Shown here: piece after piece, positions 4,799 to 60,660 of the stretch | Numbering within the stretch: the first letter of the stretch is position 1 | How the letters are laid out: each line of letters opens with the position of its first letter | From: Lunularia cruciata | Taxonomy: Eukaryota > Streptophyta > Marchantiopsida > Lunulariales > Lunulariaceae | Reading direction: 5' to 3' | NCBI GenBank assembly: GCA_948567375.1 | Contig: OX419758.1 | Coordinates: 46,639,473-46,703,472 of the forward strand | DNA length: 64,000 nt | Made by a program: the position numbers and the translations under genes | The notes under the pieces: generated by a model | The model's input: the letters and a program-made list of their open reading frames with translations, nothing else | The model's database searches: none | Told to the model about the DNA's origin: nothing

Positions 4799-5638
4799 CT
4801 ATGCGGTAGTTGACAACTTCCTTTGGGTGATCACAGCTCTATTGTCTCTCAAGAATGCAACAAAACCTGCTTGTTGAGCCTCCTTCACTTTTGCTAATTC
4901 TCCCTTCTTTGCTTGCCATTGGAGAGGTGTGAGATCAGGGTCCAACCAAATACGCCGCCCCTTCAATATAGCCTTGTTATCCATCACTGCATTCCTCCGA
5001 GTTTCTGAGCCAAACCTCACCAAAATGCTTCTTGGTTGTGCACCTTGTTGTCCCAATCTATATGCTTGCAAAATCTGAGGATCATGGACTCTCAAAGAAT
5101 CAGCAATAAACTCACACACTATGGCCTTGGTGTCTTCCTTCTCAGTCTCTGGCAAACCTGAAATTCTCAAGTTCTTCATCCTGACCAATTGGTTCTCCTT
5201 CTCAACCTCATGCTCTTGCAAGCAAGAGATTTGAGCCACCTTAGTAGCTTCAGCATAAGACTTCATCTTCACTTCTAGTGTGTCCACAATCTGTTGGAGA
5301 CCTCCGCCTTGTGTAGCAATATCGTTGGCTTGTGCTCCCAAGGAAGCAACTTTCTCGGTAGCATCAACTATCCCCTTGGTTGATGTTAACAAAGAAATAG
5401 AACTCTTCTTGAGGTCTTGAATCTCTTGGTTGACTAGGTTCAAAGACTCTTTGACACTACTGATCTCAACCTTTACAAATTCCATATCAGTCATGAGAGT
5501 ACTCATGCACTGGGACATAGGTGCCATGAAGCTTCTAAGGTCCTTGTGGAAATCATTTGCTTTCCTATACATTTCAGCTAATTGTTGTTGCTTCATGGCT
5601 ATATCAGCAATGTCTTTCACCATCTTGGAATCCTCCAT
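4799..5638 (-). CDS. LINE ORF1 protein of copy A (coiled coil, RRM, CTD)
   Basis: An intact frame of 279 residues from an ATG in good context (A at -3, G at +4). By analogy with L1 ORF1p it would be an RNA-binding, trimer-forming nucleocapsid protein of the retrotransposon particle. A heptad-like helix runs over about residues 50-150 (KVEISSVKESLNLVNQEIQD). An RRM-like domain starts at about 156 with NLRISGLPE and includes AYRLG and PRSILVRF (about 192-209). A C-terminal domain (about 233-275) holds LDPDLTPLQW and FLRDNRAVI. There is no CCHC zinc knuckle, unlike many plant LINE ORF1s. The frame ends in TAG and continues in the same phase into ORF2. Confidence 0.88.
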   Translation of the reverse strand: MEDSKMVKDIADIAMKQQQLAEMYRKANDFHKDLRSFMAPMSQCMSTLMTDMEFVKVEISSVKESLNLVNQEIQDLKKSSISLLTSTKGIVDATEKVASLGAQANDIATQGGGLQQIVDTLEVKMKSYAEATKVAQISCLQEHEVEKENQLVRMKNLRISGLPETEKEDTKAIVCEFIADSLRVHDPQILQAYRLGQQGAQPRSILVRFGSETRRNAVMDNKAILKGRRIWLDPDLTPLQWQAKKGELAKVKEAQQAGFVAFLRDNRAVITQRKLSTTA

Positions 5639-7263: not shown

Positions 7264-7708
7264 TTATTGTGAGCAAGATTATCTCTTGGCTAGGATTTCT
7301 ACTTCATTGAGACATGTTATCGCTCAATATAGAACTAGTTCTCATAGACTAGAAGTAGAACAAGGACGTTGGCAGTAGATAGAGCACTCCATGCGACTTT
7401 GCAAATTGTGTATTATAAGCAAAGTTGAGGATGAGCATCATGTGTTTGTTGATTGCCCTTGTTACATGCAGATTAGAGTTAAACATCAGATTACTTGTAG
7501 TGACTTCTCAACTCTCTTACAGGTTGAAGCTTTAGCATTAGGGAAGTACATGAAAGAAGTTACTTTACATCGGACCAATTTGTTACAGATTGGTCCGATG
7601 CCCTAGGCCCTTGCCTAGGGTCACATTTCATATGTTTTGTATTGTGTTTCCAGCCTTTTGACTCTTTGGGTCTTTCGGGCTTTATATTTCATTGTTTCAT
7701 TGTTTCAT
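7264..7708 (+). mobile_element. Short 5'-truncated LINE inserted in copy D
   Basis: It starts within the ORF2 C-terminal region (YCEQDYLLARIST) and runs through the zinc knuckle, stop codon, hairpins, 3' UTR and (TTTCATTG)n tail. A TAG interrupts the frame at 7376-7378. The bases ATAA occur at both edges, and removing the insert restores D (FIDFRKAF). The element is about 445 bp and non-functional. Confidence 0.88.
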
Positions 7709-8940: not shown

Positions 8941-11860
8941 AAACAATGAAACAATGAAATAAAAAGCCCGAAAGACCCAAAGAGTCAAAAGGCTGGAAAC
9001 ACAATACAAAACACATGAAATGTGAGCCTAGGCAAGGGCCTAGGGCATCGGACCAATTTGTAACAAATTGGTCCGATGTAAAGTAACTTCTGTCATGTAC
9101 TTCCCTAATGCTAAAGCTTCAACCTGTAAGAGAGTTGAGAAGTCACTGCAAGTAATCTGATGTCTAACTCTAATCTGCATGTAACAAGGGCAATCAACAA
9201 ACACATGATGCTCATCCTCAACTTTGCTCATAATACACAATTTGCAAAGTCGCATGGAGTGCTCTATCTACTGCCAACGTCCTTGTTCTACTTCTAATCT
9301 ATGAGAACTAGTTCTATATTGAGCGATAACATGTCTCAATGAAGTAGAAATCCTAGCCAAGAGATAATCTTGCTCACAATACACCAACATAGGATTTACA
9401 AACTGCTGATAGAACACAATCTTGGTACCGGGTTGCTGCCATAAGCGAACTAAAAACTGCTCCTTGATCACCTCTCGAAGTGCAATAGGCTCCAATCTCC
9501 AATGTCGCTCAGAAACATTCCACCTTGTGGCCCATGCAATCAGATCTGTATACCAACCGACAGATAGAGTGGCACAAAAAGCTTGGTAGGGAAGTCTCTC
9601 ATGCTCCATGGACCTCACCTTAGTGGCATATGTGATAGCTAAAAACAAAGCTTCAGCCTCAAGAGATAAAAATCCTGTTTCAGCAAGCAGGAATACATAA
9701 GGAGTTTGAGTCCTCACCCCAAGTTCATCACACAAAAACAATTTCTGAACTTTCTCCACCTTTTGCCACCATGTCTTCTTAGTACCTGGACCCCAAATCT
9801 GAGCACCATAGAGAACCACCGGCTGCACAAGAGATCTGAACAACATCTTCTTCAACTCCCATGTGGTGAGGTGAGCAAGTCTACTGCGGTTCATGAGTGA
9901 ATACAAAGCTCTAAAGCCTGCATTGATTCTCATCTTCACACAAGTAGACCAACTATAGTCATGAGAAAACTCAAGGCCCAAGTACTTATAAGAAGAAACT
10001 TGCTCCAATTGCTGTCCATCAAAAAAGAAAGGTGTGACACCTTTAGAACCCACCACAATCACCTTGGACTTGTCAAGGTTCACCTCCATCTTTGTTTGAT
10101 TGCAAAAGCAGAGTAGAGAATCCAACAGCTTTTGTAAACTTTGTGGATTTGTGGAGAGAAGCACTACATCATCTGCATAAAGGAGTGCATGTATCATCAA
10201 AGAGCCAACCTGTACAGCTGTAGCTCCAGCTTCCATGAGTAGACTCTCTAGATCATCGATGAAGATTCCGAACAGAGTTGGAGACAGAGAGCAGCCTTGG
10301 ATCACACCCATTGTGCTAAGGACATCTTGAGAGCTCAAAGATGAAAGTTTCACAATCACTTTCTCATAGAGTCTAGAGATAGCACCAATCAGATCAGCTG
10401 AAACACCCACTTCAATGAGTCTCTCACTTAGAGATTTCCTGAGCACCTTATCAAAGGCCTTCCTGAAATCAATAAAGGCAACATAGAGAGCTCTCCCAAC
10501 CCCCTTGGATTTGCACCACAAAACATGAAGTACCAATAGGTGGTCCAAAGTACTAAAGCCTAATCTGAAACCAGCTTGGCACTTAGCTCGAATTTTGTGC
10601 TTTTCAGCCCAAGTGCTCAACCTTGACTCCAAAATTCGACCATACAACTTGGCAAAGACACTACCAACAAGTATGGTATGGTAATTGGTGACAACATCTC
10701 TTTGGCCAGACTTGTGAATAGGAACTACCTTCTTGAAGCACCATCTATCCGGAAAGCCACACTTGATTGCCTCATTCAAATGAGAAGTGAGTATTGAAAT
10801 CAGTTGGCTACCGCCCCACTTCAGAAGTTCAACACATAGTCCATCAAGGTCTTCAGCCTTACCATTGGCCAACTTCTTCAATTGGTACTTGACATCAGCT
10901 TCAGAGATGGTGAGAGCAGATCCAAGGCAAGGTGCCATGCTTGGAGCATTTGGGAAAAAGTACAAATCCTTCACATAGTCACAAAGCTCATTCAGGTCCA
11001 GCGATGGAGATGGAGATCTGATGGTTACTTTCTTCCAGAAAGCCTTGGGATTGCTCCTCAATTCAGTGCTCAACTCAACTCCTTTGAGTCTTAGAAATGC
11101 CCGCTTTTTGCACTTCACCAACTTTCTGTATAAAACAAAAGCTTGATTTTGTGCAATCTGATCAAGAGATCTATCCATAGCTTTGATCCTTGCCATTTTG
11201 CAATCAGCATCATACCATCTATTGCAAGGGAGACCAAGTCTCTTCCTGTGGGAGCCTCTTGGAAACAAAGAAGTTGATGTAGATTGAAGAAGTTCAATCA
11301 ATTGATCACTACGTTGTTGAAAATCAGAACTCCACTCCATAGAACTCAATTTCTCTTGGATAGCTTGTTGGTACAAGTCTCTCTTGTGAAAATCTAGACG
11401 AAGTTTGCCTCTAAAAGCATGGTCTATAGGTAATGTGGTTCTATTGAGGCAAGGAAAAAGGATGGTACAGGATAGAGGTGCATGGTCTGATTCTGGTTGA
11501 GGATCTAAAACAGCAAAATCTGAGACAAGATGGATATCATTAGCTGAAGTGAGCATATAATCTATGGTGCTTGATCCACCTGAGGCAAAGCATGTGCTTT
11601 TACAAGTTTCTGGAAATTGAGAAAGGCCATTCAAGATCTTCAAGCTACAATTGGCACCAAAGCTCAAAAAGTGCTCACTCATGGAATTGGACATAGGATC
11701 TTTGGAAGAGCGTGACCAAGCACTGGAATGGTCTATCAAGCTGTGGAAAGGATCATTCTCAAGGTCGCTCAAGTCAGGGATCTGAGAAGCTTGGATCCTA
11801 GCATTGAAATCACCAAGAACAAGGACTGCACCTTTACTTTGAAACTCTAACACATCCTTT
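8941..11860 (-). mobile_element. LINE copy F, 5'-truncated, nested in copy D
   Basis: It begins with the minus-strand tail (TTTCATTG units) at 8941 and extends through the 3' UTR, the hairpins and ORF2 up to the endonuclease residues KDVLEFQSKGA, where it is 5'-truncated. ORF2 is open for about 870 codons apart from a TAG for Gln at 9268-9270. A target duplication of 6-9 bp, (TTT)GGAAGA, flanks it at 8932-8941 and 11858-11866. It keeps intact Trp and Arg codons at the two positions that are mutated in D. Confidence 0.9.
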
Positions 11861-12430: not shown

Positions 12431-15400
12431 CTATGTAGTAGCTGATAATTTCTTTTGAGTAATCACAGCTCTATTATCTCTCAAGAATGCAACAAAACCT
12501 GCTTGTTGAACCTCGTTCACTTTTGCTAATTCCCCCTTCTTTGCTTGCCATTGGAGAGGTGTGAGATCAGGGTCCAACCAGATATGCCGCCCCTTTAGTA
12601 TAGCTTTGTTCCCCATCACTACATTCCTTTGAGTTTCTGAGCCAAACCTCACCAAAATGCTTCTTGGTTGTGCACCTTGTTGTCGCAATCTATATGCTTG
12701 CAAAATCGAAGGATCATGGACTCTCAAAGAATCAGCAATAAACTCACACACTATGGCCTTGGTGTCTTCCTTCTCAATCTCAGGTAAACCTGAAATCCTC
12801 AAGTTCTTCATTCTGACCAATTGGTTCTCCTTCTCAACCTCATGCTCTTGCAAGTAATGAAACAATGAAACAATGAAATATAAAGCCCGAAAGACCCAAA
12901 GAGTCAAAAGGCTGGAAACACAATACAAAACACATGAAATGTGAGCCTAGGCAAGGGCCTAGGGCATCGGACCAATTTGTAACAAATTGGTCCGATGTAA
13001 AGTAACTTCTGTCATGTACTTCCCTAATGCTAAAGCTTCAACCTGTAAGAGAGTTGAGAAGTCACTGCAAGTAATCTGATGTCTAACTCTAATCTGCATG
13101 TAACAAGGGCAATCAACAAACACATGATGCTCATCCTCAACTTTGCTCATAATACACAATTTGCAAAGTCGCATGGAGTGCTCTATCTGCTGCCAACGTC
13201 CTTGTTCTACTTCTAATCTATGAGAACTAGTTCTATATTGAGCGATAACATGTCTCAATGAAGTAGAAATCCTAGCCAAGAGATAATCTTGCTCACAATA
13301 CACCAACATAGGATTTACAAACTGCTGATAGGACACCATCTTGGTACCGGGTTGCTGCCATAAGCGAACTAAAAACTGCTCCTTGATCACCTCTCGAAGT
13401 GCAATAGGCTCCAATCTCCAATGTCGCTCAGAAACATTCCACCTTGTGGCCCATGCAATCAGATCTGTATACCAACCGACAGATAGAGTGGCACAAAAAG
13501 CTTGGTAGGGAAGTCTCTCATGCTCCATGGACCTCACCTTAGTGGCATATGTGATAGCTAAAAACAAAGCTTCAGCCTCAAGAGATAAAAATCCTGTTTT
13601 AGCAAGCAGGAATACATAAGGAGTTTGAGTCCTCACCCCAAGTTCATCACACAAAAACAATTCCTGAACTTTCTCCACCTTTTGCCACCATGTCTTCTTA
13701 GTACCTGGACCCCAAATCTGAGCACCATAGAGAACCACCGGCTGCACAAGAGATCTGAACAGCACCTTCTTCAACTCCCATGTGGTGAGGTGAGCAAGTC
13801 TACTGCGGTGCATGAGTGAATACAAAGCTCTAAAGCCTGCATTGATTCTCATCTTCACACAAGTAGACCAACTATAGTCATGAGAAAACTCAAGGCCCAA
13901 GTACTTGTAAGAAGAAACCTGCTCCAATTGCTGTCCATCAAAAAAGAAAGGTGTGACACCTTTAGAACCCACCACAATCACCTTGGACTTGTCAAGGTTC
14001 ACCTCCATCTTTGTTTGATTGCAAAAGTAAAGTAGAGAATCCAACAGCTTCTGTAAACTCTGTGGATTTGTGGAGAGAAGCACTACATCATCTGCATAAA
14101 GGAGTGCATGTATCATCAAAGAGCCAACCTGTACAGCTGTAGCTCCAGCTTCCATGAGTAGACTCTCTAGATCATCGATGAAGATTCCGAACAGAGTTGG
14201 AGATAGAGAGCAGCCTTGGATCACACCCATTGTGCTAAGGACATCTTGAGAGCTCAAAGATGAAAGTTTCACAATCACTTTCTCATAGAGTCTAGAGATA
14301 GCACCAATCAGATCAGCTGAAACACCCACTTCAATGAGTCTCTCACTTAGAGATTTCCTGAGCACCTTATCAAAGGCCTTCCTGAAATCAATAAAGGCAA
14401 CATAGAGAGCTCTCCCAACCCCCTTGGATTTGCACCACAAAACATGAAGTACCAATAGGTGGTCCAAAGTACTAAAGCCTAATCTGAAACCAGCTTGGCA
14501 CTTAGCTCGAATTTTGTGCTTTTCAGCCCAAGTGCTCAACCTTGACTCCAAAATTCGACCATACAACTTGGCAAAGACACTACCAACAAGTATGGTACGG
14601 TAATTGGTGACAACATCTCTTTGGCCAGACTTGTGAATAGGAACTACCTTCTTGAAGCACCATCTATCCGGAAAGCCACACTTGATTGCCTCATTCAAAT
14701 GAGAAGTGAGTATTGAAATCAGTTGGCTACCGCCCTACTTCAGAAGTTCAACACATAGTCCATCAAGGTCTTCAGCCTTACCATTGGCCAACTTCTTCAA
14801 TTGGTACTTGACATCAGCTTCAGAGATGGTGAGAGCAGATCCAAGGCAAGGTGCCATGCTTGGAGCATTTGGGAAAAAGTACAAATCCTTCACATAGTCA
14901 CAAAGCTCATTCAGGTCCAGCGATGGAGATGGAGATCTGATGGTTACTTTCTTCCAGAAAGCCTTGGGATTGCTCCTCAATTCAGTGCTCAACTCAACTC
15001 CTTTGAGTCTTAGAAATGCCCGCTTTTTGCACTTCACCAACTTTCTGTATAAAACAAAAGCTTGATTTTGTGCAATCTGATCAAGAGATCTATCCATAGC
15101 TTTGATCCTTGCCATTTTGCAATCAGCATCATACCATCTATTGCAAGGGAGACCAAGTCTCTTCCTGTGGGAGCCTCTTGGAAACAAAGAAGTTGATGTA
15201 GATTGAAGAAGTTCAATCAATTGATCACTACGTTGTTGAAAATCAGAACTCCACTCCATAGAACTCAATTTCTCTTGGATAGCTTGTTGGTACAAGTCTC
15301 TCTTGTGAAAATCTAGACGAAGTTTGCCTCTAAAAGCATGGTCTATAGGTAATGTGGTTCTATTGAGGCAAGGAAAAAGGATGGTACAGGATAGAGGTGC

Positions 15401-22244: not shown

Positions 22245-22809
22245 TGTGTGAGGCCATGAACATTCCAAAACAACACTCTAAGGGTCTGGAATTTCTATGC
22301 AATAGTTGACAATTTCTTTTGAGTAATCATCGCTCTATTATCTTTCAAGAATGCAATGAAACCTGCTTGTTGAGCCTACTTCACTCTTGCTAATTCGTCC
22401 TTCTTTGCTTGCCATTGGAGAGATGTGAGATCAAGATCTAACCTGATGCGCCGCCCCTTCAATACAACCTTGTTTGCCATCACTAAATTCCTTTGAGTTT
22501 TTGAGCCAAACCTCACCAAAATGCTTCTTGGTTGTGCACCTTGCTGTCCCAATCTATATGCTTGCACAATTTGAGGATCATGGACTCTCAAAGAATCAGT
22601 AATAAACTCGCACACTATGGCCTTGGTATCTTCATTCTCAATCTCTGGCAAACTTGAAATCCTCCAGTTCTTCATTCTCACCAGTTGGTTCTCCTTTTCA
22701 ACCTCATGCTCTTGCAAGTAAGAGATTTAAGCCACCTTAGTAGCTTCAGCACAAGACTTCATCTTCACTTCTAATGTGTCCACAATCTGTTGGAGCCCTC
22801 CGCTTTGTG

Positions 22810-24295: not shown

Positions 24296-25135
24296 ATGGA
24301 GGATTCCAAGATGGTGAAAGACATTGCTGATATAGCCATGAAGCAACAACAATTAGCTGAAATGTATAGGAAAGCAAATGATTTCCACAAGGACCTTAGA
24401 AGCTTCATGGCACCTATGTCCCAGTGCATGAGTACTCTCATGACTGATATGGAATTTGTAAAGGTTGAGATCAGTAGTGTCAAAGAGTCTTTGAACCTAG
24501 TCAACCAAGAGATTCAAGACCTCAAGAAGAGTTCTATTTCTTTGTTAACATCAACCAAGGGGATAGTTGATGCTACCGAGAAAGTTGCTTCCTTGGGAGC
24601 ACAAGCCAACGATATTGCTACACAAGGCGGAGGTCTCCAACAGATTGTGGACACACTAGAAGTGAAGATGAAGTCTTATGCTGAAGCTACTAAGGTGGCT
24701 CAAATCTCTTGCTTGCAAGAGCATGAGGTTGAGAAGGAGAACCAATTGGTCAGGATGAAGAACTTGAGAATTTCAGGTTTGCCAGAGACTGAGAAGGAAG
24801 ACACCAAGGCCATAGTGTGTGAGTTTATTGCTGATTCCTTGAGAGTCCATGATCCTCAAATTTTGCAAGCATATAGATTGGGACAACAAGGTGCACAACC
24901 AAGAAGCATTTTGGTGAGGTTTGGCTCAGAAACTCAGAGGAATGCAGTGATGGATAACAAGGCTATACTGAAGGGGCGGCGTATTTGGTTGGACCCTGAT
25001 CTCACACCTCTCCAATGGCAAGCAAAGAAGGGAGAATTAGCAAAAGTGAAGGAGGCTCAACAAGCAGGTTTTGTTGCATTCTTGAGAGACAATAGAGCTG
25101 TGATCACCCAAAGCAAGTTGTCAACTACCGCATAG
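24296..25135 (+). CDS. LINE ORF1 protein of copy B
   Basis: An intact 279-residue frame from ATG (MEDSKMVKDIADI) to TAG at 25133-25135. It is almost identical to ORF1 of copy A. An upstream in-frame GTG exists, but the ATG has the better context (ACAATGG). Predicted N-terminal helix, coiled coil (about 50-150), RRM (about 156-232) and basic C-terminal domain; a chaperone and RNA-binding role is inferred from the L1 ORF1p family. The codon after the stop is CAA and the frame stays open into ORF2. Confidence 0.9.
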   Translation: MEDSKMVKDIADIAMKQQQLAEMYRKANDFHKDLRSFMAPMSQCMSTLMTDMEFVKVEISSVKESLNLVNQEIQDLKKSSISLLTSTKGIVDATEKVASLGAQANDIATQGGGLQQIVDTLEVKMKSYAEATKVAQISCLQEHEVEKENQLVRMKNLRISGLPETEKEDTKAIVCEFIADSLRVHDPQILQAYRLGQQGAQPRSILVRFGSETQRNAVMDNKAILKGRRIWLDPDLTPLQWQAKKGELAKVKEAQQAGFVAFLRDNRAVITQSKLSTTA

Positions 25136-30299: not shown

Positions 30300-33200
30300 A
30301 TGCAAGCTTAAAGCTACCAAGGTGGCTCAAATTTCTTACTTGCAAGAGCATTAGGTTGAGAACCAACTGGTGAGAATGAAGAACTTGAGAATTTCAGGTT
30401 TACCATAGATAAAGAAGAAAGATACAAAGCCATAGTGTGTGAGTTTATTGCTGATTCTTTGAGAGTCCATGATCCTCAAATTGTGCAAGCATATAGATTG
30501 GGACAGAATGGTGCATAACCAAGAAGCATTTTGGTGAGATTTGGCTCAAAAATCTAGAGGAATTTAGTGATGGAAAACAAGGTTATACTCAAGGGGCAGC
30601 GCATCTAGTTGGCACTCATCTCACATCTCTCCAGTGGCAAGCAAAGAATGGAGAATTAGCAGAAGTGAAGGAGGCTCAACAAGTAGGTTTTGTTGCATTC
30701 AAGAGAGATAATAGAGTTGTGATTACTAAAAAGAAATTGTCAGCTATTGCATAGCAATTCCAAACCCTTAGAGTTTTGTTTTGGAATGTTCATGGCCTCA
30801 CACATGCCAAGTACTCCAATGCTAAGCCTTTGTGGGATAATATTGATCTTATCAATCTTGTGGAGACATTGGAACATGAAAGAAACACCATTCAAGACAT
30901 TGAAGATTTCACTCTTGTCTGTTCAACATGGAACAAGCGGAAGCAACACAAAGGAAGTGGCTTTGGAGGTATTGCTACTTATGTTAGATTTGGCTTTGAG
31001 AAATCAGTCTCTTTGATAGGCCAAGACTCAAGTGGACCATACTAATGGTTGAAGATTGGAGGAGTTGTAACACCTTGCTTCCTTGTTGTGTGTTATTTTG
31101 CTCCATTGACATCACCAATCTACTCAAGTGGAGCTCTCAACACCATGCAGCCTTTCCACTCCTTGACAAAGGATGTGTTGGAGTTTCAAAGTAAAGGTGT
31201 AGTACTTGTTCTTGGTTATTTCAATGCTAGGATCCAAGCCTGTCAGATCCCTGAGTTGAGTGACCTTGAGAATGACCTTTTCCATAGCTTGATAGACCAT
31301 TCTTGTTCTTGGTCCCGCTCTTCCAAAGATCCTATGTCCAACCACATGAGTGAGCACTTTTTGAGCTTTGGTACCAATTGTAGCTTGAAGATCTTGAATG
31401 GCCTTTCTCAATTTCTAGAAACTTGTAAGATCACATGCTTTACTTTAGGCGGATCAAGCACTGTAGATTATATGCTCACTTCAGCTAATGACATGGTGGC
31501 AAAAGGTGGAGAAAGTTCAAAAATTGTTTTTGTGTGATGAACTTGGGGCGAGGACTCAAACTCCTTATGTATTGTTGCTTGCTGAAATAGGGTTTTTGCT
31601 TCTTGAGGCTGAAGCTTTGTTTTTAGTTATCACATATGCCACTAAGGTGAGGTCCATGAAGCATGAGAGACTTCCCTACCAAGCTTTTTGTGCCACTCTA
31701 TCTGTCGGTTGGTATACAGGTCTGATTGCATGGGCCACCAGGTGGAATGTTTCTGAGCGACATTGGAGATTGGAGCCTATTGCACTACAAGAAGTGATCA
31801 AGGAGCAGTTCTTACTACGCCTATGGCAGCAGCCCGGTACCAAGATGGTGTTTTATCAGCAGTTTGTAAATCCTATGTTGGTGTATTGTGAGCAAGATTA
31901 TCTCTTGGCTAGGATTTCTACTTCACTTAGACATGTTATCACTCAGTATAGAACTAGTTCTCATAGACTAGAAGTAGAACAAGGACATTGGCAGCAGATA
32001 GAGCTCTCCATGCGACTTTGCAAATTGTATATTATGAGCAAAGTTGAGGATGAGCATCATGTGTTTATTGATTGCACTTGTTACATGCTGATCAGAGTTA
32101 GAAATCAGATTACTTGTAGTGATTTCTCAACTCTCTTACAGGTTGAAGCTTTAGCGTTAGGGAAATACATGACTGAGGTTAGTTTACATCGGACCAATTT
32201 GTTACAGATTGGTCAGATGCCCTAGGTCCTTGCCTAGGCTCACATTTCATGTGTTTTGTATTGTGTTTCTAGCCTTTTGACTCTTTGGGTCTTTCGGGCT
32301 TTATATTTCATTGTTTCATTGATATCCATTTTGTCTCAGATTTTGTTGTTTTAGATCATCAACTAGAATTTGACCATGCATCTCTATCTTGTGCCATCCT
32401 TCTTCCTTGCCTCAATAGAACCATATTACCTATTGATCATGCTTTTAGAGGGAAATTTTATCTATATTTTCACAAGAGAGATTTGTACCAACAAGCTATC
32501 CAAGAGAAATTAAGCTCTATGGAGTGGAGTTTTGATTTTTGACAACGTAGTGATCAATTGGTTGAACTTCTTCAATCTACATCAACTACTTTGTTTCCAA
32601 GAGGTTACCACATGAAAATACTTGGTCTCCCTTGCAATAGGTGGTATGATGTTGATTGTAAAATGGAAAGGATCAAAGCTATGGATAGGTCTTTTGATAA
32701 GATTGTACAAAATCAGGCCTTTGGTTTGTACAAAGTTGGTGAAGTGTAAAAAGCAGGCATTTTTGAGACTCAAGGAGGTTGAGCACTGAACTGAGGAGCA
32801 ATCCCAAGGCTTTATGGAAGAAGATAACCATCAGATCTCCATCTCTATCATTGGACCTAAACTAGGTTTGTAACTATGTGAAGGATCTGTATTTTTTCTC
32901 TAATGCTCCAACCATGGCACCTAACCTTGGATATGCTATCACCATCTTTGAAGTTGATGTCAAGTATCAACTCAAGAAGTTGGCCAATGGTAAGGCCGAA
33001 GACCTTGATGGACTATGTGTTGAACTACTTGAAGGTGTTGTTCAGATCTCTTATGCAACCGGTGGTTCTCTATGGTGCTCAGTTTTGGGGTCCAGGTACT
33101 AAGAAGACATGGTGGCAGAGGTGGAGAAAGTTTAGAAATTGTTTGTGTGTGATGAACTTGGAGTGAGGACCCAAAATCCTTATGTAATGTTGCTTGCTAA

Positions 33201-52137: not shown

Positions 52138-53162
52138 AATGAACAATGAACAATGAAATATAAAGCCCAAAAGACCCAAAGAGTCAAAAGGCTAGAAACA
52201 CAATACAAAACACATGAAATGTGAACCTAGGCAAGGGCCTAGGGCATCTGACCAATCTGTAACAAATTGGTCCGATGTAAACTAACCTCGGTCATGTATT
52301 TCCCTAACGCTAAAGCTTCAACCTGTAAGAGAGTTGAGAAATCACTACAAGTAATCTGATGTCTAATTATGATCAGCATGTAACAAGGGCAATCAATAAA
52401 CACATGATGCTCATCCTCAACTTTGCTCATAATACACAATTTGTAAAGTCGCATGGAGTGCTCTATTTGCTACCAACGTCCTTGTTCTACTTCTAGTCTA
52501 TGAGAACTAGTTCTATATTGAGCAATAACATGTCTAAGTGAAGTAGAAATCCTAGCCAAGAGATAATCTTGCTCACAATACACCAACATAGGATTTACAA
52601 ACTGCTGATAAAACACCATCTTGGTACCGGGCTGCTGCCATAGGCGTAGTAAGAACTGCTCCTTGATCACTTCTTGTAGTGCAATAGGCTCCAATCTCCA
52701 ATGTTGCTCAGAAACATTCCACCTTGTGGCCCATGCAATCAGATCTGTATACCAACCGACAGATACAATGGCACAAAAAGCTTGGTAGGGAAGTCTCTCA
52801 TGCTCCATGGACCTCACCTTAGTGGCATATGTGATAGCTAAAAACAAAGCTTCAGCCTCAAGAGGCAAAAACCCAATTTCAGCAAGCAGGAATACATAGG
52901 GAATACATAGGGAGTTTGAGTCCTCGCCCCAAGTTCATCACACAAAAACAATTTTTGAACTTTCTCCATCTTTTGCCACCATGTCTTCTAAGTACTTGGA
53001 CCCCAAATCTGAGCACCATAGAGAACCACCGGCTGCACAAGAGATCTGAACAACACCTTCTTCAACTCCCATGTGGTAAGGTGAGTAAGTCTAGAGTGGT
53101 TCATCAGTGAATACAAAGCTCTAAAGCATGCATTGATTCTCATCTTCACACAAGTAGACCAA
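52138..53162 (-). mobile_element. 5'-truncated LINE (N) in the 5' UTR of copy P
   Basis: It has a (TTCATTG)n tail, 3' UTR, hairpins (IGQMP form) and ORF2 back to the thumb (GWSTCVKMRINA region). A TAG for Gln occurs at 52470-52472 and a small duplication sits near 52905. Its 5' end is joined to a 100-bp GC-rich stretch that is not LINE sequence. Confidence 0.85.
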
Positions 53163-53262: not shown

Positions 53263-55114
53263 GTGATTATTGATGCATTAGAACCTATGACTTACAAGCT
53301 CTATTTCAAGTCAAAACTCGCAGCATATGGAAGTCTGAGCAAATAGTGGTGACAATTCTCATTCTATCACAACTCCCGAATCTTGGTGAGATTAGTAGTG
53401 TAAAAGAGTCCTTGAACCTAGTCAACCAAGAGATTCAAGACCTGAAGAAGAGTACTATCTCACTGTTAACATCAACCAAGGGGATGGTTGATGCTACCAA
53501 GAAAGTTGCTTCCTTGGGAACACAAGCCAGTGACATTGCTACATAAAGCGGAGGGCTCCAACAGATTGTGGACACATTAGAAGTGAAGATGAGGTCATAT
53601 GCTGAAGCTACTAAGGTGGCTCAAATCTCTTACTTGCAAGAGCATGAGGTTGAAAAGGAGAACCAACAGGTCAGATTGAAGAACTTGAGGATATCTGGTT
53701 TGCCAAAGACTGAGAAGGAAGACACCAAGGCCAAAGTGTGTGAGTTTCTTACTGATTCTTTGAGAGTCCATGATCCTCAGATTTTGCAAGCATATAGATT
53801 GGGACAACAAGGTGCACAACCAAGAAGCATTTTGGTGAGGTTGGCTCAAAAACTCAAAGGAATTCAGTGATGGCAAACAAGGCTATACAGAAGGGGCGGC
53901 GTATCCGGTTGGATCCTGATCTCACATCTCTCCAATGGCAAGCAAAGAAAGGAGAATTAGCAAAAGTGAAGGAGGCTCAACAAGAAGGTTTTGTTGCATT
54001 CTTGAGAGACAATAGAGCTGTGATCACCCAAAGGAAGTTGTCAACTACCGCATAGCAATTCCAGACCCTTAGAGTGTTGTTTTGGAATGTTCATGGTTTC
54101 ACACATACCAAGTACTCAAGCGCTTAACCTATGTGGGAAGATGCTGATCTGATCAATCTTGTGGAGACATGGGAACATGAAGGAAACACCATTCAAGACA
54201 TTGAAGGTTTCACTCTTGTCAGTTCAACTTGGAACAAGTGGAGGCAACACAAAGGAAGGGGCTCTGGAGGTATTGCTACATACATCAGATTTGGCTTTGA
54301 AAAATCAGTCTCTTTGATAGGCCAAGATTCAAGTGGACAATACCAATGGCTGAGGATTGGAGGATTTGCTACACCTTGCTTCCTTGCTGTTTGTTACTTT
54401 GCCCCATTGACATCACCAATCTACTCAAGCGGATCTCTCAACACCATGCAGACTTTCCATTCCTTAACAAAGGATGTGTTGGAATTTCAAAGTAAAGGTG
54501 CAGTACTTGTTCTTGGTGATTTCAATGTTAGGATCCAAGCCTCTCAGATCCCTGAGTTTAGTGACCTTGAGAATGTCCCTTTCCATAGCTTGATAGATCA
54601 TTCTAGTGCTTGGTCCCACTCTTCCAAAGATCTCATATCCAACTCCATGAGTGAGCACTTTTTGAGCTTTGGTACCAATTGTAGCTTGAAGATCTTGAAT
54701 GGCTTTTCTCAATTTCCAGAAACTTGTAAAAGCACACGCTTTGCTTCTGGTGGATCCAACATTGTAGATTATATGCTCACCTCACCCAATGATATACACA
54801 TTGTCTCAGATTTTGTTGTTTTAGATCCCCAACCGCAATCTGAGCATGCACCTCTATCTTGTGCCATCCTTCTTTCTTGCCTCAATAGAACCACATTACC
54901 TATTGACCATGCCCTTAGAGGAAAACTTCGTCTAGATTTTCACAAGAGAGACTTGTACCAACAAGCTATCCAAGAGAAATTGAGTTCTATGGAGTAGAGT
55001 TCTGATTTTCAACAATGAACAATGAACAATGAAATATAAAGCCTGAAAGACCCAAAGAGTCAAAAGGCTAGAAACACAATACAAAACACATGAAATGTGA
55101 GCCTAGGCAAGGGC

Positions 55115-58100
55115 CTAGGGCATCTGACCAATCTGTAACAAATTGGTCCGATGTAAACTAACTTCTGTCATGTACTTCCCTAACGCTAAAGCTTCAACCT
55201 GTAAGAGAGTAGAGAAATCACGACAAATAATCTGATGTCTAACTCTGATCAGCATGTAACTAGGGCAATCAATAAACACATGATGCTCATCCTCAACTTT
55301 GCTCATAATACACAATTTGCAAAGTTGCATGGAGTGCTCTATCTGCTACCAACGTCCTTGTTCTACTTCTAGTATATGAGAACTAGTTCTATATTGAGCA
55401 ATAACATGTTTAAGTGAAGTAGAAATCCTAGCCAAGAGATAATCTTGCTCACAATACACCAACATAGGATTTACAAATTGCTGATAGAACACCATCTTGG
55501 TACCGGGTTGCTGCCATAGGCGAAGTAAGAACTGCTCCTTGATCACTTCTCGTAGTGCAATAGGCTCCAATCTCCAATGTCGCTCAGAAACATTCCACCT
55601 AATGGCCCATGCAATCAGATCTGTATACCAACCGACAGATAGAGTGGCACAAAAAGCTTGGTAGGGAAGTCTCTCATGGTCCATGGACCTCACCTTAGTG
55701 GCATATGTGATAGCTAAAAACAAAGCTTCAGCCTCAAGAGGCAAAAACCCTGTTTCAGCAAGCAACAATACATAAGGAGTTTGAGTCCTCACCCCAAGTT
55801 CATCACACAAAAACAATTTCTGAACTTTCTCCACCTTTTGCCACCATGTCTTCTTAGTACCTGGACCCCAAATCTGAGCACCATAGAGAACCACCGGCTG
55901 CACAAGAGATCTGAACAGCACCTTCTTCAACTCCCATGTGGTAAGGTGAGCAAGTCTAGAGCGATTCATGAGTGAATACAAAGCTCTAAAGCCTGCATTG
56001 ATTCTCATCTTCACACAAGTAGACCAACTATAGTCATGAGAAAACTCAAGGCCCAAGTACTTGTAAGAAGAAACCTGCTCCAATTGCTGTCCGTCAAAAA
56101 AGATAGGTGTGACACCTTTAGAACCCACCACAATCACCTTGGACTTGTCAAGGTTCACTTCCATCTTTGTTTCATTGCAAAACAAGAGAAGAGAATCCAA
56201 TAGCTTCTGTAAACTCTGTGGGTTGGTGGAGAGAAGCACTACATCATCTGCATAAAGGAGTGCATGTATCATCAGAGAGCCAATCTGTACACCTGTAGCT
56301 CCAGCTTCCATGAGTAGACTCTCCAGATCATCGATGAAGATTCCAAATAGAGTGGGAGATAGAGAGCAGCCTTGAATCACACCCATTGTGCTAAGGACAT
56401 CTTGAGAGCTCAAAGATGAAAGTTTCACAATCATTTTCTCATAGAGTCTAGAGATAGCACCAATCAGATCAGCTGAAACACCAACTAGAGTGAGTCTCTC
56501 ACTTAGACATTTCCTAAGCACCTTATCAAAGGCCTTCCTGAAATCAATAAAGGCAACATAGAGAGCTCTCCCAACACCCTTGGATTTCCACCACAAAACA
56601 TGGAGTACCAATAAGTGATCCAAGGTGCTAAAGCCCGATCTGAAACCCGCTTGGCACTTAGCTCGAACATTGTACTTTTCAGCCCAAGTGCTCAACCTAG
56701 ACTCCAAAATTCCACCATACAACTTGGCAAAGACACTACCAACAAGTATGGTACGGTAATTGGTGACAACATCTCTCTGGCCAGACTTGTGAATAGGAAC
56801 AACCTTCTTGAAGCACCATCTATCCGGAAAGCCACACTTGATTGCCTCATTCAAATGAGAAGTGAGTACTGAAATCAGATGGCTACCGCCCCACTTCAGA
56901 AGTTCAACACATAGTCCATCAAGGTCTTCAGCCTTACCATTGGCCAACTTCTTCAATTGGTACTTGACATCAGCTTCAGAGATGGTGAGAGCAGATCCAA
57001 GGCAAGGTGCCATGCTTGGAGCATCAGGGAAAAAGTACAGATCTTTCACATAGTCACAAAGCTTGTTTAGGTCCAGCAATGGAGATGGAGATCTGATGGT
57101 TACCTTCTTCCAAAAAGCCTTAGGATTGCTCCTCAGTTCAGTGCTCAACTCAACCCCCTTGAGTCTCAAAAATGCTCGCTTTTTGCACTTCACCAACTTT
57201 CTGTATGAAACAAAGGCCTGATTTTGTGCAATCTGATCAAGAGACCTATCCATAGCTTTGATCCTTGCTATTTTGCAATCAGCATCATACCACCTATTGC
57301 AAGGGAGACCAAGTCTCTTCCTGTGGGAGCCTCTTGGAAAGAAAGTAGTTGATATAGATTGAAGAAGCTCAACCAACTGATCACTACGTTGTTGAAAATC
57401 AGAACTCCACTCCATAGAACTCAATTTCTCTTGGATAGCTTGTTGGTACAAGTCTCTCTTGTGAAAGTCTAGATGAAGTTTTCCTCTAAAGGCATGGTCA
57501 ATAGGTAATGTGGTTCTATTGAGGCAAGGAAGAAGGATGGCACAAGATAGAGGTGCATGGTCTGATTCTGGTTGAGGATCTAAAACAATAAAATCTGAGA
57601 CAAAGTGGATATCATTAGCTGAAGTGAGCATATAATCTATGGTGCTTGATCCACCAGAGGCAAAGCATGTGCTTTTACAAGTTTCTGGAAATTGAGAAAT
57701 GCCATTCAAGATCTTCAAGCTACAATTGGTACCAAAGCTCAAAAAGTGCTCACTCATGGGGTTGGACATAAGATCTTTGGAAGAGCGGGACCAAGCACTA
57801 GAATGATCTATCAAACTATGGAGAGGATCATTCTCAAGGTCACTCAAGTCAGGGATCTGAGAGGCTTGGATCCTAGCATTGAAATCACCAAGAACAAGTA
57901 TTGCACCTTTACTTTGAAACTCTAACACATCCTTTGTCAAGGAATGGAAAGGCTGCATGGTGTTGAGAACTCCACTTGAATAGATTGGTGATGTCAATGG
58001 GGCAAAGTAGCAAACAGCAATGAAGCAAGGTGTGGTAACTCCTCCAATCCTTAACCATTGGTATTGTCCATTTGAATCTTGACCTATCAAAGAGATTGAT

Positions 58101-58348
58101 TTCTCAAAGCCAAATCTGACGTAAGTAGCAATACCTCCAAAGCCCCTTCCTTTGTGTTGCCTCCGCTTGTTCCAAGTTGACCCAATAAGAGTGAAACCTT
58201 CAATGTCTTGAATGGTGTTTCCTTCATGTTCCCATGTCTCCACAAGATTGATCAGATCAGCATCATCCCACAAAGGCTTAGCGCTGGAGTACTTGGTTTG
58301 TGTGAGCCCATGTACATTCCAAAACAACACTCTAAGGGTCTGGAATTG
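55115..58348 (-). pseudogene. LINE ORF2 of copy C (endonuclease-RT), one nonsense codon
   Basis: About 1077 codons counted from the codon after the ORF1 stop. Domain order: AP endonuclease (about 1-245; FWNVHGL, LVETWEHEG, LGDFNARIQ, IDYMLTS, SDHAPLSC); linker; RT (about 480-780; KAEDLDGL, FIDFRKAFDKV, GVIQGCSLSP, HALLYADDVVLLS, KMEVNLDKSKV, YKYLGLEFS); thumb (QPVVLYGAQIWG); and zinc knuckle (CKLCIMSKVEDEHHVFIDC, about 1010). No RNase H domain is seen. The first Met codon lies after the endonuclease Asn and Glu. The only premature stop is at 55346-55348, so the endonuclease and RT domains are intact. Confidence 0.9.
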
Positions 58349-59188
58349 CTATGCAACAGCTGACAATTTCTTTTGAGTAATCACAGCTCTATTATCTCTC
58401 AAGAATGCAACAAAGCCTGCTTGTTGAGCCTCCTTCACTTTTGCTAATTCTCCCTTCTTTGCTTGCCATTGGAGAGATGTGAGATCAGGATCTAACCAGA
58501 TGCGCCGCCCCTTCAATACAGCTTTGTTTGCCATCACTAAATTCCTTTGAGTTTCTGAGCCAAACCTCACCAAAATGCTTCTTGGTTGTGCACCTTGCTG
58601 TCCCAATCTATATGCTTGCACAATTTGAGGATCATGGACTCTCAGAGAATCAGCAATAAATTCACACACTATGGCCTTGGTATCTTCCTTCTCAATCTCT
58701 GGCAAACCTGAAATCCTCAAGTTTTTCATTTTCACCAGTTGGTTCTCCTTTTCAACCTCATGCTCTTGCAAGTAAGAGATTTGAGCCACCTTAGTAGCTT
58801 TAGCATAAGACTTCATCTTCACTTCTAATGTGTCCACAATCTGTTGGAGCCCTCCGCTTTGTGTAGCAATGTCGTTGGCTTGTACTCCCAAAGATGCAAC
58901 CTTCTCAGTAGCATCCACCATCCCCTTGGTTGATGTTAACAGCGAGATAGTACTCTTCTTTAGGTCTTGAATCTCTTGGTTGACCAAGTTCAATGACTCT
59001 TTTATAGTGCTGATCTCAACCTTTACAACATCCATATCAGTCATGAGAGTACTCATGCACTGGGACATAGGTGCAAAGAAACTTCTAAGCTCTTTGTGGA
59101 AATCATTAGATTTCCTGTACATTTCAGCTAATTGTTGTTGCTTCAAGGCTATATCTGCAATGTCTTTCACCATCTTGGACTCCTCCAT
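58349..59188 (-). CDS. LINE ORF1 protein of copy C
   Basis: An intact 279-residue frame from ATG (MEESKMVKDIADIALKQQQ). It has the same domain order as copies A and B: N-terminal helix, coiled coil, RRM starting NLRISGLPEIEKED and C-terminal domain ending near DNRAVITQ. It differs from A/B at scattered positions (for example DVVKVEISTIKES), so it is a separate lineage within family 1. The stop is TAG at 58349-58351, followed in frame by CAA TTC. Confidence 0.9.
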   Translation of the reverse strand: MEESKMVKDIADIALKQQQLAEMYRKSNDFHKELRSFFAPMSQCMSTLMTDMDVVKVEISTIKESLNLVNQEIQDLKKSTISLLTSTKGMVDATEKVASLGVQANDIATQSGGLQQIVDTLEVKMKSYAKATKVAQISYLQEHEVEKENQLVKMKNLRISGLPEIEKEDTKAIVCEFIADSLRVHDPQIVQAYRLGQQGAQPRSILVRFGSETQRNLVMANKAVLKGRRIWLDPDLTSLQWQAKKGELAKVKEAQQAGFVAFLRDNRAVITQKKLSAVA

Positions 59189-60660
59189 TATGCCAATCAC
59201 TAATCACTCACAATAAATCTAGAAGTTTTACTTCCAACACCAAAACTTCAAGATTTTCAAGGTAGCTTAGCTGTGATTTTACATCACTAAGTACTACTAG
59301 CTAGGTATTGAAAGAAGGAACTGGAGAAGTTGGTTCTAATGAGATAATAATCACCTCAAATGGACATGTGAATGTAAAGCTATTACATTCCAAATCAGTG
59401 GTGCACAAAGCTACCAAAGGCTGCGAAAATTGGGGTACCCAGAGCTCCAAATCTATCCTCTAAACTCTGTCAATAATTTTTCAATGTAAAGGCTTGACTG
59501 AGCTGATTCTAATGACACAAAGATCACTTCATTTGGATCATTGAGTACAAAGATACAATGGTCTGAATTTGCACTTCACAATGTTGTGATGTACAAAGAG
59601 TCACAGATCTCAAATTGTCACAACTTCCTTGTCTGATCTCCAATTGCAACAAATCAAAGCTCAAAAGAAACCTTGCATAGTGCTTGTTCTATTGCCACAA
59701 AAACCACTTGATTTGGACCTATAAGTACAGCGCAATCCTACTTCACATGTGTAGAATTTAACACCAAGTACTTGGAAGTATTGCAATGAAGCAAATGGTC
59801 ATATCATCAGCTTTGAATATCCAAATTCTTCAAATATGAAGTCAATAGAAAGCCTATGACAATGTGGTTCTTATGACACAAGAATCACCTGGATTGGGTT
59901 TGTGAGTGAGGAGAACTGGCCCTGCAAAGTTGGAACTCTAAACACCAAGATGCATGAAATGTAACAGAATGGGAATTGCCACCACTGCTTGCTCAGACCT
60001 CCATATGCTACGAATTTGAACTTGAAACAGAGCTTGTAACTCACCGATTCTGATGCCGCAATTTTCACTGGATTTGCACTTTTGACTGCAGAGCAATCCT
60101 CTCCCAATTCTCGCACATTCACATAGATTACCGAGAGCTTCCTCAGAATTGAAAAATCCATAACTCTCTGTGTACTCCTCCAAACTGGACAAGCTTGACC
60201 TTGAAATAAAGCTCTCAGCATAAGGGTCCAAATGAGATTCAAATCACTCCATTTGCTCGTGTATTCGCAGAGGTACAATCATTTGAAATTGCAGCTCAAA
60301 CCCTAAAATCTGCCAAAGAGAACAGAATTCGAACCCTTGTAACTTTCTGCACAAAACTGGTCTTCAAACGCGCTTGATATCAATCGAAACAGCAGGTCAA
60401 GGCGCATCCAATGCCACAAAAATCACTCCATTTGGACTTTTGATGATGAAGAAACAAACTCTCAAATGTGGATCCTCTGTCAGAATATTCAATCACTCAT
60501 AACTCTCTGCACAAAGCTCAGAATGTAACAATCTTGATGGCCATGGAAAGATATTGGCAAGGCGCTTCTAACAAAATCAAAATCACAAGGTTTAGACATG
60601 TATCGGTTGAGATATGACACTTCAAACTTTCGGGAAATCTACTCTCTCTTCTCCTTCGAA
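59189..60660 (-). repeat. Monomeric 5' UTR of copy C
   Basis: Core blocks equivalent to those of copy B recur about every 180 bp; the clearest lie near 60436, 60257, 59717 and 59537 in element orientation. No coding capacity. Confidence 0.78.

Follow-up and report, generated by a model that had tools for sequence, protein, structure and literature searches.

An L1-like LINE family of a probable liverwort whose ORF1 and ORF2 share a frame around a single UAG, a candidate for stop-codon readthrough

Described systems and the junctions in the window

The mode of ORF2 expression has been worked out in few LINEs. Mammalian LINE-1 resembles the family analyzed here in having two ORFs and in its type of ORF1p, but it has a 63-nt spacer between the ORFs, and an unconventional reinitiation was proposed for it (PMC5972666). 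Silkworm SART1 is likewise a non-LTR element with two ORFs, and differs in using an overlapping stop-restart (PMC5972666). In Zorro3 of Candida albicans, a LINE of the L1 superfamily, the ORFs do not overlap either; its inter-ORF region, however, contains several stops and the ATG of ORF2 is needed. ORF1 and ORF2 do lie in one frame in the group 3 LINEs of Paramecium, for which readthrough of the ORF1 stop was proposed (PMC5405496), although these belong to a ciliate, were described as part of a distinct clade, and their readthrough is also only predicted.

In-frame stops are also described in LTR elements and plant viruses. SIRE1, a Sirevirus of soybean, has a single in-frame stop between two ORFs, and its second ORF was reported to be expressed through suppression of this stop (PMC2194720, PMC2829016); it shares with our LINE the plant host and the in-frame stop, but it is an LTR element and the stop lies at the pol-env junction. 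In Tca2, an LTR element of Candida albicans, an in-frame UGA separates gag and pol, and pol is translated from the gag-pol RNA, yet 300 nt of the flanking sequence gave no readthrough in yeast (PMC2194720), a warning that a stop lying in frame may prove tight when placed in a reporter. The context of tobacco mosaic virus (TMV) gave about 6-10% readthrough in stable Arabidopsis lines, and tyrosine was inserted in N. benthamiana (PMC2754532). Among titles and abstracts of open-access papers we found no plant LINE with ORF1 and ORF2 arranged around an in-frame stop, subscription papers being mostly outside this search. The first-pass annotation of this DNA had called such an arrangement unusual for a LINE; this holds, but it is less unprecedented than was claimed, given the proposal for Paramecium group 3 and the stop suppression in SIRE1.

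The window, by which we mean the whole analyzed stretch of 64,000 nucleotides, lies on contig C7 of an assembly of 74 contigs (565.8 Mb), and is a nest of a single LINE family with no intact copy. Its ORF1-ORF2 junctions are:

4799-4801, minus strand: junction TAG of copy A
12431-12433, minus strand: junction TAG of copy D, with GTA-CTG in place of GTG-TTG
22295-22297, minus strand: junction of copy E, which reads TAG-AAA-TTC
25133-25135, plus strand: junction TAG of copy B, of the same young type as copy A but with other flanks
30752-30754, plus strand: junction TAG of copy J, with GTT-TTG in place of GTG-TTG
54053-54055, plus strand: junction TAG of copy P, of the A type
58349-58351, minus strand: junction UAG of copy C, in frame between ORF1 and ORF2, context GCA-UAG-CAA-UUC

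The other parts of copy C are:

59201-60640, minus strand: 5' UTR region with a degenerate 51-nt motif at a spacing of about 180 nt; the outer end is approximate, a by-eye estimate from the 5' end common to copies A and B
58352-59188, minus strand: ORF1, 279 codons from the ATG, a putative L1 ORF1p-like RNA-binding protein (profile match)
58331-58348, minus strand: six-codon spacer CAA TTC CAG ACC CTT AGA, then GTG, in frame with both ORFs
55349-58348, minus strand: open part of ORF2, 1000 codons, predicted APE endonuclease and reverse transcriptase (Pfam)
55346-55348, minus strand: in-frame TAG at ORF2 codon 1001
55115-55345, minus strand: rest of the ORF2 frame with a zinc-finger-like end, closing in the conserved final TAG (55115-55117), which is followed by GCC

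All seven junctions have TAG and a single frame, and at the three named junctions A, B and C the frame runs unbroken from ORF1 through TAG into the endonuclease. The positions first given for the TAG that ends ORF1 in these three copies proved correct. So did the six in-phase codons leading to GTG TTG TTT TGG in each of them, the presence of TAG-CAA-TTC in copies D, J and P, and the deviating triplet of copy E. Copies A and B are nearly identical (98.6-98.8%) and their flanks differ. Because their similarity does not extend beyond either end of the element, they are two insertions of one young type, and the idea that they are one (inverted) duplicated segment with a common flank was rejected.

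We then consider the junctions around the window and in the genome. A local sample of 263,472 contiguous bases around the window was searched with probes on either side of the junction, which omitted the stop and included the following CAA. All 33 junctions found there had TAG, and 32 had TAG-CAA-TTC; one decayed copy (C7:46528843) has a single extra nucleotide in ORF1, just upstream of the stop. Genome-wide, a pattern of the flanks that left the six bases TAGCAA free matched 367 places, and its reversed control matched none. TAG-CAA was exact at 352 of these places, and among the 100 matches listed the stop position read TAG in 98, TAA in one and AAG in one. When up to three mismatches were allowed, 585 places matched; the 100 listed, all of them mismatch-free, had TAG in 97 and AAG in three. 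The one AAG copy that was read (L029) is a decayed fragment.

Identity, selection and open frames

ORF2, translated from the GTG, matched the Pfam families PF00078 (E = 1e-27) and PF03372 (E = 9.5e-11), and its best matches among solved structures were R2 elements; for the endonuclease, the solved structures gave no sequence match. The ORF1 profile matched the LINE-1 ORF1p structures 2ykp/2yko (E = 6.8e-05) and 2ldy (E = 3.4e-04), while its best E-value was obtained with 7rdr, an unrelated-looking repeat protein (2.7e-07, no stretch passing alone). On sequence grounds, ORF1 is predicted to be of the L1 ORF1p type (RRM) and the element to be an L1-like APE non-LTR retrotransposon, and its host is probably a liverwort.

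Substitution rates were compared without gaps, and for this 7 ORF1s and 4 ORF2s were selected from collinear copies among the 33. Between A- and C-type copies of the window, ORF1 showed a dS of 0.324 and a dN of 0.048, and ORF2 a dS of 0.218 and a dN of 0.035. D-type ORF1s differed from A and C with a dS of 0.44-0.55 and a dN/dS of 0.17-0.22, and the ORF2s of one D-type and one C-type copy differed with a dS of 0.144 and a dN/dS of 0.19. The dN/dS between A-, C- and D-type copies was thus about 0.13-0.23 in both ORFs. Very close pairs gave high or undefined values (e.g. 1.05, 1.84 and 0.74), as is expected of copies that decay after insertion, and ORF2 comparisons with L033 (0.46-0.84) were set aside because this copy seems to carry an indel. 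The low dN/dS between subfamilies shows that purifying selection acted on both proteins during the diversification of the family, throughout which the TAG was present. Between C- and D-type copies, the dS of about 0.5 in ORF1 exceeded that of about 0.15 in ORF2, mainly through the N-terminal part of ORF1, and the two types are probably recombinant subfamilies. On this account, the divergence relevant to the junction is nearer to 0.15-0.25.

Of the 33 copies in the local sample, 10 have the full ORF1 frame open and two the full ORF2 of 1077 codons, and none has both. A genome search with a Riccia protein, however, returned places resembling the window family, of which 50 were scored out of 1784 candidates. 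A joint open frame of 1361 codons was found at 27 of these 50 places and one of 1371 codons at 11; many of the 50 resemble one another and are probably tandem duplicates. At all four loci that were fetched, the joint-frame figure was consistent with ORF1 plus TAG plus ORF2, and all four junctions read TAG-CAA-TTC. The whole sum is visible in L032 (193 codons, TAG and 586 codons, 780 together). L034, which is copy C, has 284 codons, TAG and 1000 codons. L033 and L035 are open for 282 and 293 codons back from the junction, and past it their ORF2 stays open as far as the fetched stretch reaches, which is 988 codons or more; the start ATG of ORF1 is kept in L035 and changed in L033. There are thus elements in which ORF1 and ORF2 are both open on their side of the TAG and, given also the low dN/dS, the arrangement is not random decay.

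Constraint at the junction was assessed by comparing three copies, one of each of the A, C and D types, with their fourfold sites. In this comparison with neutral sites, of a kind that the first-pass annotation had called for, the invariance of the TAG alone is uninformative, the test having no statistical power for it (P = 0.48-0.50). The TAG and the 18-nt spacer taken as one stretch had 1 variable site in 21, against 104 in 476 fourfold sites, which is borderline (P = 0.04-0.05), and 40% of coding windows of equal length vary as little. This comparison hints weakly that the spacer is translated. Taken together, the common frame, the lack of an early AUG (see below) and the low dN/dS on both sides are not due to chance.

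How ORF2 may be translated

We consider that leaky readthrough of UAG-CAA, giving an ORF1-ORF2 fusion, is the best explanation of these observations and a probable one. ORF1 (RNA-binding and gag-like) and ORF2 (endonuclease-reverse transcriptase) would then be one frame with a single leaky UAG. Most ribosomes would terminate at the UAG and release ORF1p, and a minority would decode it, in its CAA-UUC context, with a near-cognate tRNA and produce a fusion of about 1357 residues. Such readthrough would set a gag:pol-like ratio and would bring the enzyme to its own coding RNA. If a LINE does make such a covalent fusion, cis-preference and the ratio of the two proteins would both be accounted for. 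What the sequences show is the common frame, the UAG, the lack of a start codon, purifying selection on both ORFs and elements that are open on either side of the UAG; readthrough, its level, the inserted amino acid and the fusion protein are what we infer.

Readthrough is favored by the prevalence of TAG-CAA at the junctions, the low dN/dS of both ORFs, the joint open frames, the late first ATG of long ORF2s and the GTA-CTA subfamily (see below for the last two). Further observations also favor it: the variation of the spacer does not exceed that of coding sequence, complete ORF1s of Marchantia end at the same alignment column, and the stop of ORF2 itself lies in a different context from the junction, UAG-G instead of UAG-CAA (of the 12 3' ends in the window, 8 have GCC after this UAG and three have a different codon that begins with G), which offers a useful internal control. 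The readthrough signal of type I in plant viruses is UAG-CARYYA (PMC5382211), and this consensus was described as essential in TMV (PMC2754532). At the junction, UAG is followed by CAR, and the second codon, UUC, supplies YY without the final A; the replicase of the tobamovirus TMV thus shares with the LINE the UAG, the CAA and the UU, but its consensus ends in A where the LINE has C. The match of five bases in six that had been pointed out earlier is therefore correct, and a match of at least this quality is expected by chance in about 2.5% of cases (by arithmetic, with equal base frequencies).

Against readthrough stand the missing final A, the uninformative invariance of the TAG, the borderline spacer test, the failure of the Tca2 flanks in yeast, and the lack of a stimulatory structure. 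Twenty folds, four stretches around the junction in each of five copies, gave z values from -1.35 to 1.67, and we therefore claim neither a stimulator nor a TURBS-like element. All five folded copies have an 8-bp hairpin two bases past the stop, which is no more stable than in shuffled sequences. It lies too near the stop for a classical stimulator. Readthrough as originally proposed remains the best-supported reading, then, with these marks against it and with a weak GUG rival.

An unlikely alternative, but the one that survives best, is a termination-reinitiation of the kind proposed for mammalian LINE-1, in which ribosomes restart at or next to the stop, independently of the codon and without an AUG, and make a separate ORF2p. 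Caliciviruses reinitiate at non-cognate codons, and the mechanism proposed for mammalian L1 is unconventional (PMC5972666). The zero distance between ORF1 and ORF2 would suit such a restart. It needs no common frame, however, which would then arise by chance in one case of three, and it does not predict the (borderline) coding-like behavior of the six spacer codons; nor is there an unusually stable structure on either side of the junction.

Reinitiation at a fixed codon depends on which start codons are present. The residues Asn11 and Glu37 of ORF2 are, we presume, catalytic in the endonuclease, and it had been claimed for copies A, B and C that no ATG precedes them and that the first lies more than 100 codons in. 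Wherever ORF2 is long, codon 131 is indeed the first ATG in frame. The same codon is the first ATG in 23 of the 33 copies; in the 10 others, mostly broken, the first lies at codons 21-125, though never before Asn11. An AUG that overlaps or adjoins the junction stop, like the UAAUG of SART1, is absent.

The first-pass annotation had taken reinitiation at GUG as the main alternative to readthrough. In this reading, ribosomes would restart six codons past the UAG, at GUG or a neighboring near-cognate codon, which we scored as any codon one base from ATG within ORF2 codons 1-10 of the 33 junctions. GTG-TTG at codons 7-8 is the only such site in 16 junctions, and two more have GTG together with AAG at codon 3, which is what speaks for this reading. 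The GTG is not conserved, however, and variants with GTA-CTG, GTA-CTA and GTT-TTG occur. In the 15 junctions without GTG, the only near-cognate is CTG (codon 8) in 10, TTG in one and ATC (codon 4) in one, and three have none. Genome-wide, CTA stands at codon 8 in 30 exact TAG-CAA matches, made up of 12 with GTG-CTA and 18 with GTA-CTA, the latter spread over 8 contigs, with at least one pair among them a tandem duplicate. Codons 1-10 of the GTA-CTA subfamily contain no near-cognate start. By the listed positions, a site of this subfamily on contig C6 adjoins a joint open frame of 1371 codons and another adjoins one of 1368 codons; the GTA-CTA copy that was fetched (L030) has an open ORF1 and two stops in ORF2. 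The replacement of GTG by GTA in an amplified subfamily shows that the design includes no fixed GUG start, and we consider this rival, much weakened, very improbable. The loss of GTG bears on a GUG start and not on a reinitiation that needs no particular codon.

Slightly less probable still is a transcript that lacks the stop through splicing or some other shortening, as is assumed by two gene models of Riccia sorocarpa (P0005 and P0019) that join ORF1 to the endonuclease and leave the junction out. In the window element, the endonuclease starts directly after the UAG, and the Riccia models also lose conserved coding sequence next to the junction, on one side of it or on both, and for this reason they look like annotation artefacts around the stop. 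Annotated liverwort gene models such as these two may hide such junctions behind false introns.

Least probable of all, and hardly to be entertained, is that UAG is a sense codon in the host, which the open frame across it would allow, or that the junction is dead, with ORF2p provided in trans. Against the first, the frame of copy C contains 73 CAA/CAG codons and TAG only twice, at the junction and at codon 1001, and 11 of the 12 window 3' ends close ORF2 with a TAG at one common position, after 1077 codons; against the second, dN/dS is well below 1 in both ORFs.

Relatives, genomic setting and element ends

Six proteins of Marchantia polymorpha match ORF1 with 40-58% identity. In four of them, and in three further proteins, the end falls in the alignment column where the window ORF1 stops; of the remaining two models, one is truncated and one deviates. 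The probable liverwort host is based on these matches and on those in Riccia. Among 6581 candidates for naturally fused relatives there was one protein, a Riccia model that bridges the junction by omitting it. No relatives turned up in collections of viral contigs and of genome contigs, by ORF2 or by the ORF1 profile. A LINE family was described as flanking the centromeres of M. polymorpha (PMC12885004), a species that also has the ORF1 relatives. We tentatively suggest a broader reading, which is possible though open to real doubt: that a liverwort L1-like LINE makes a gag-pol-like fusion through UAG-CAA, that this arrangement goes back to the ancestor of the pericentromeric LINEs found in thalloid liverworts, Marchantia among them, and that it converges with the pol expression of viruses and LTR elements. 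Because M. polymorpha is a laboratory plant, its ORF1 relatives, among them Mp_8g05040 and Mp_8g06530, make the readthrough question directly testable.

Among the matches listed, contig C1 has 35 of its 36 junctions between 46.15 and 47.40 Mb, and contig C2 has 52 of its 53 between 33.18 and 34.73 Mb. One block per large contig (on C1, on C2, and around the window on C7) suggests that the LINE family is pericentromeric. At 46.28-46.31 Mb of C1, LINE-bearing units repeat at exactly 10,598 bp, and on the small contig C4 such units recur at a partly regular spacing; these are LINEs that have been turned into higher-order tandem arrays. When 41 sequences, namely the 33 near the window and eight further loci whose choice was biased because the pattern that picked them contained TAG, were compared over 603 nt, they formed 24 clusters at 1.5%. 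Some clusters are tandem duplicates, for example the 10,598-bp repeat on C1 and one further pair, and other clusters may be young insertions.

Six matches of the degenerate 51-nt motif, at a spacing of about 180 nt, lie at 59335-60457 in the 5' UTR region of copy C. The monomeric promoters of rodent L1 are a parallel to such a spaced motif.

Toward the other end of the element, ORF2 codon 1001 is CAG in 8 of the 12 window 3' ends, TAG in two, CAA in one and CGG in one, and two others have TAG at codon 1002 (the four sites are 55346-55348, 52470-52472, 7376-7378 and 9268-9270). These TAGs are a recurrent change from CAG to TAG. A second readthrough site in ORF2 of copy C, at the TAG-CAG before the zinc finger, was considered and rejected, and the TAG at codon 1001 was treated as a mutation because only two of the 12 3' ends have it.

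L1-like LINEs usually end in a poly-A tail, although this does not strictly define them. The present element lacks one and ends, at about 55010-55040 and at its other 3' ends, in a short TTTCATTG/TTCATTG repeat, which is unusual for an L1-like LINE. In two decayed fragments, L004 and L007 (at 1506), sequence without ORF1 is fused to TTGCATAGCAATTC, with the break just before the stop.
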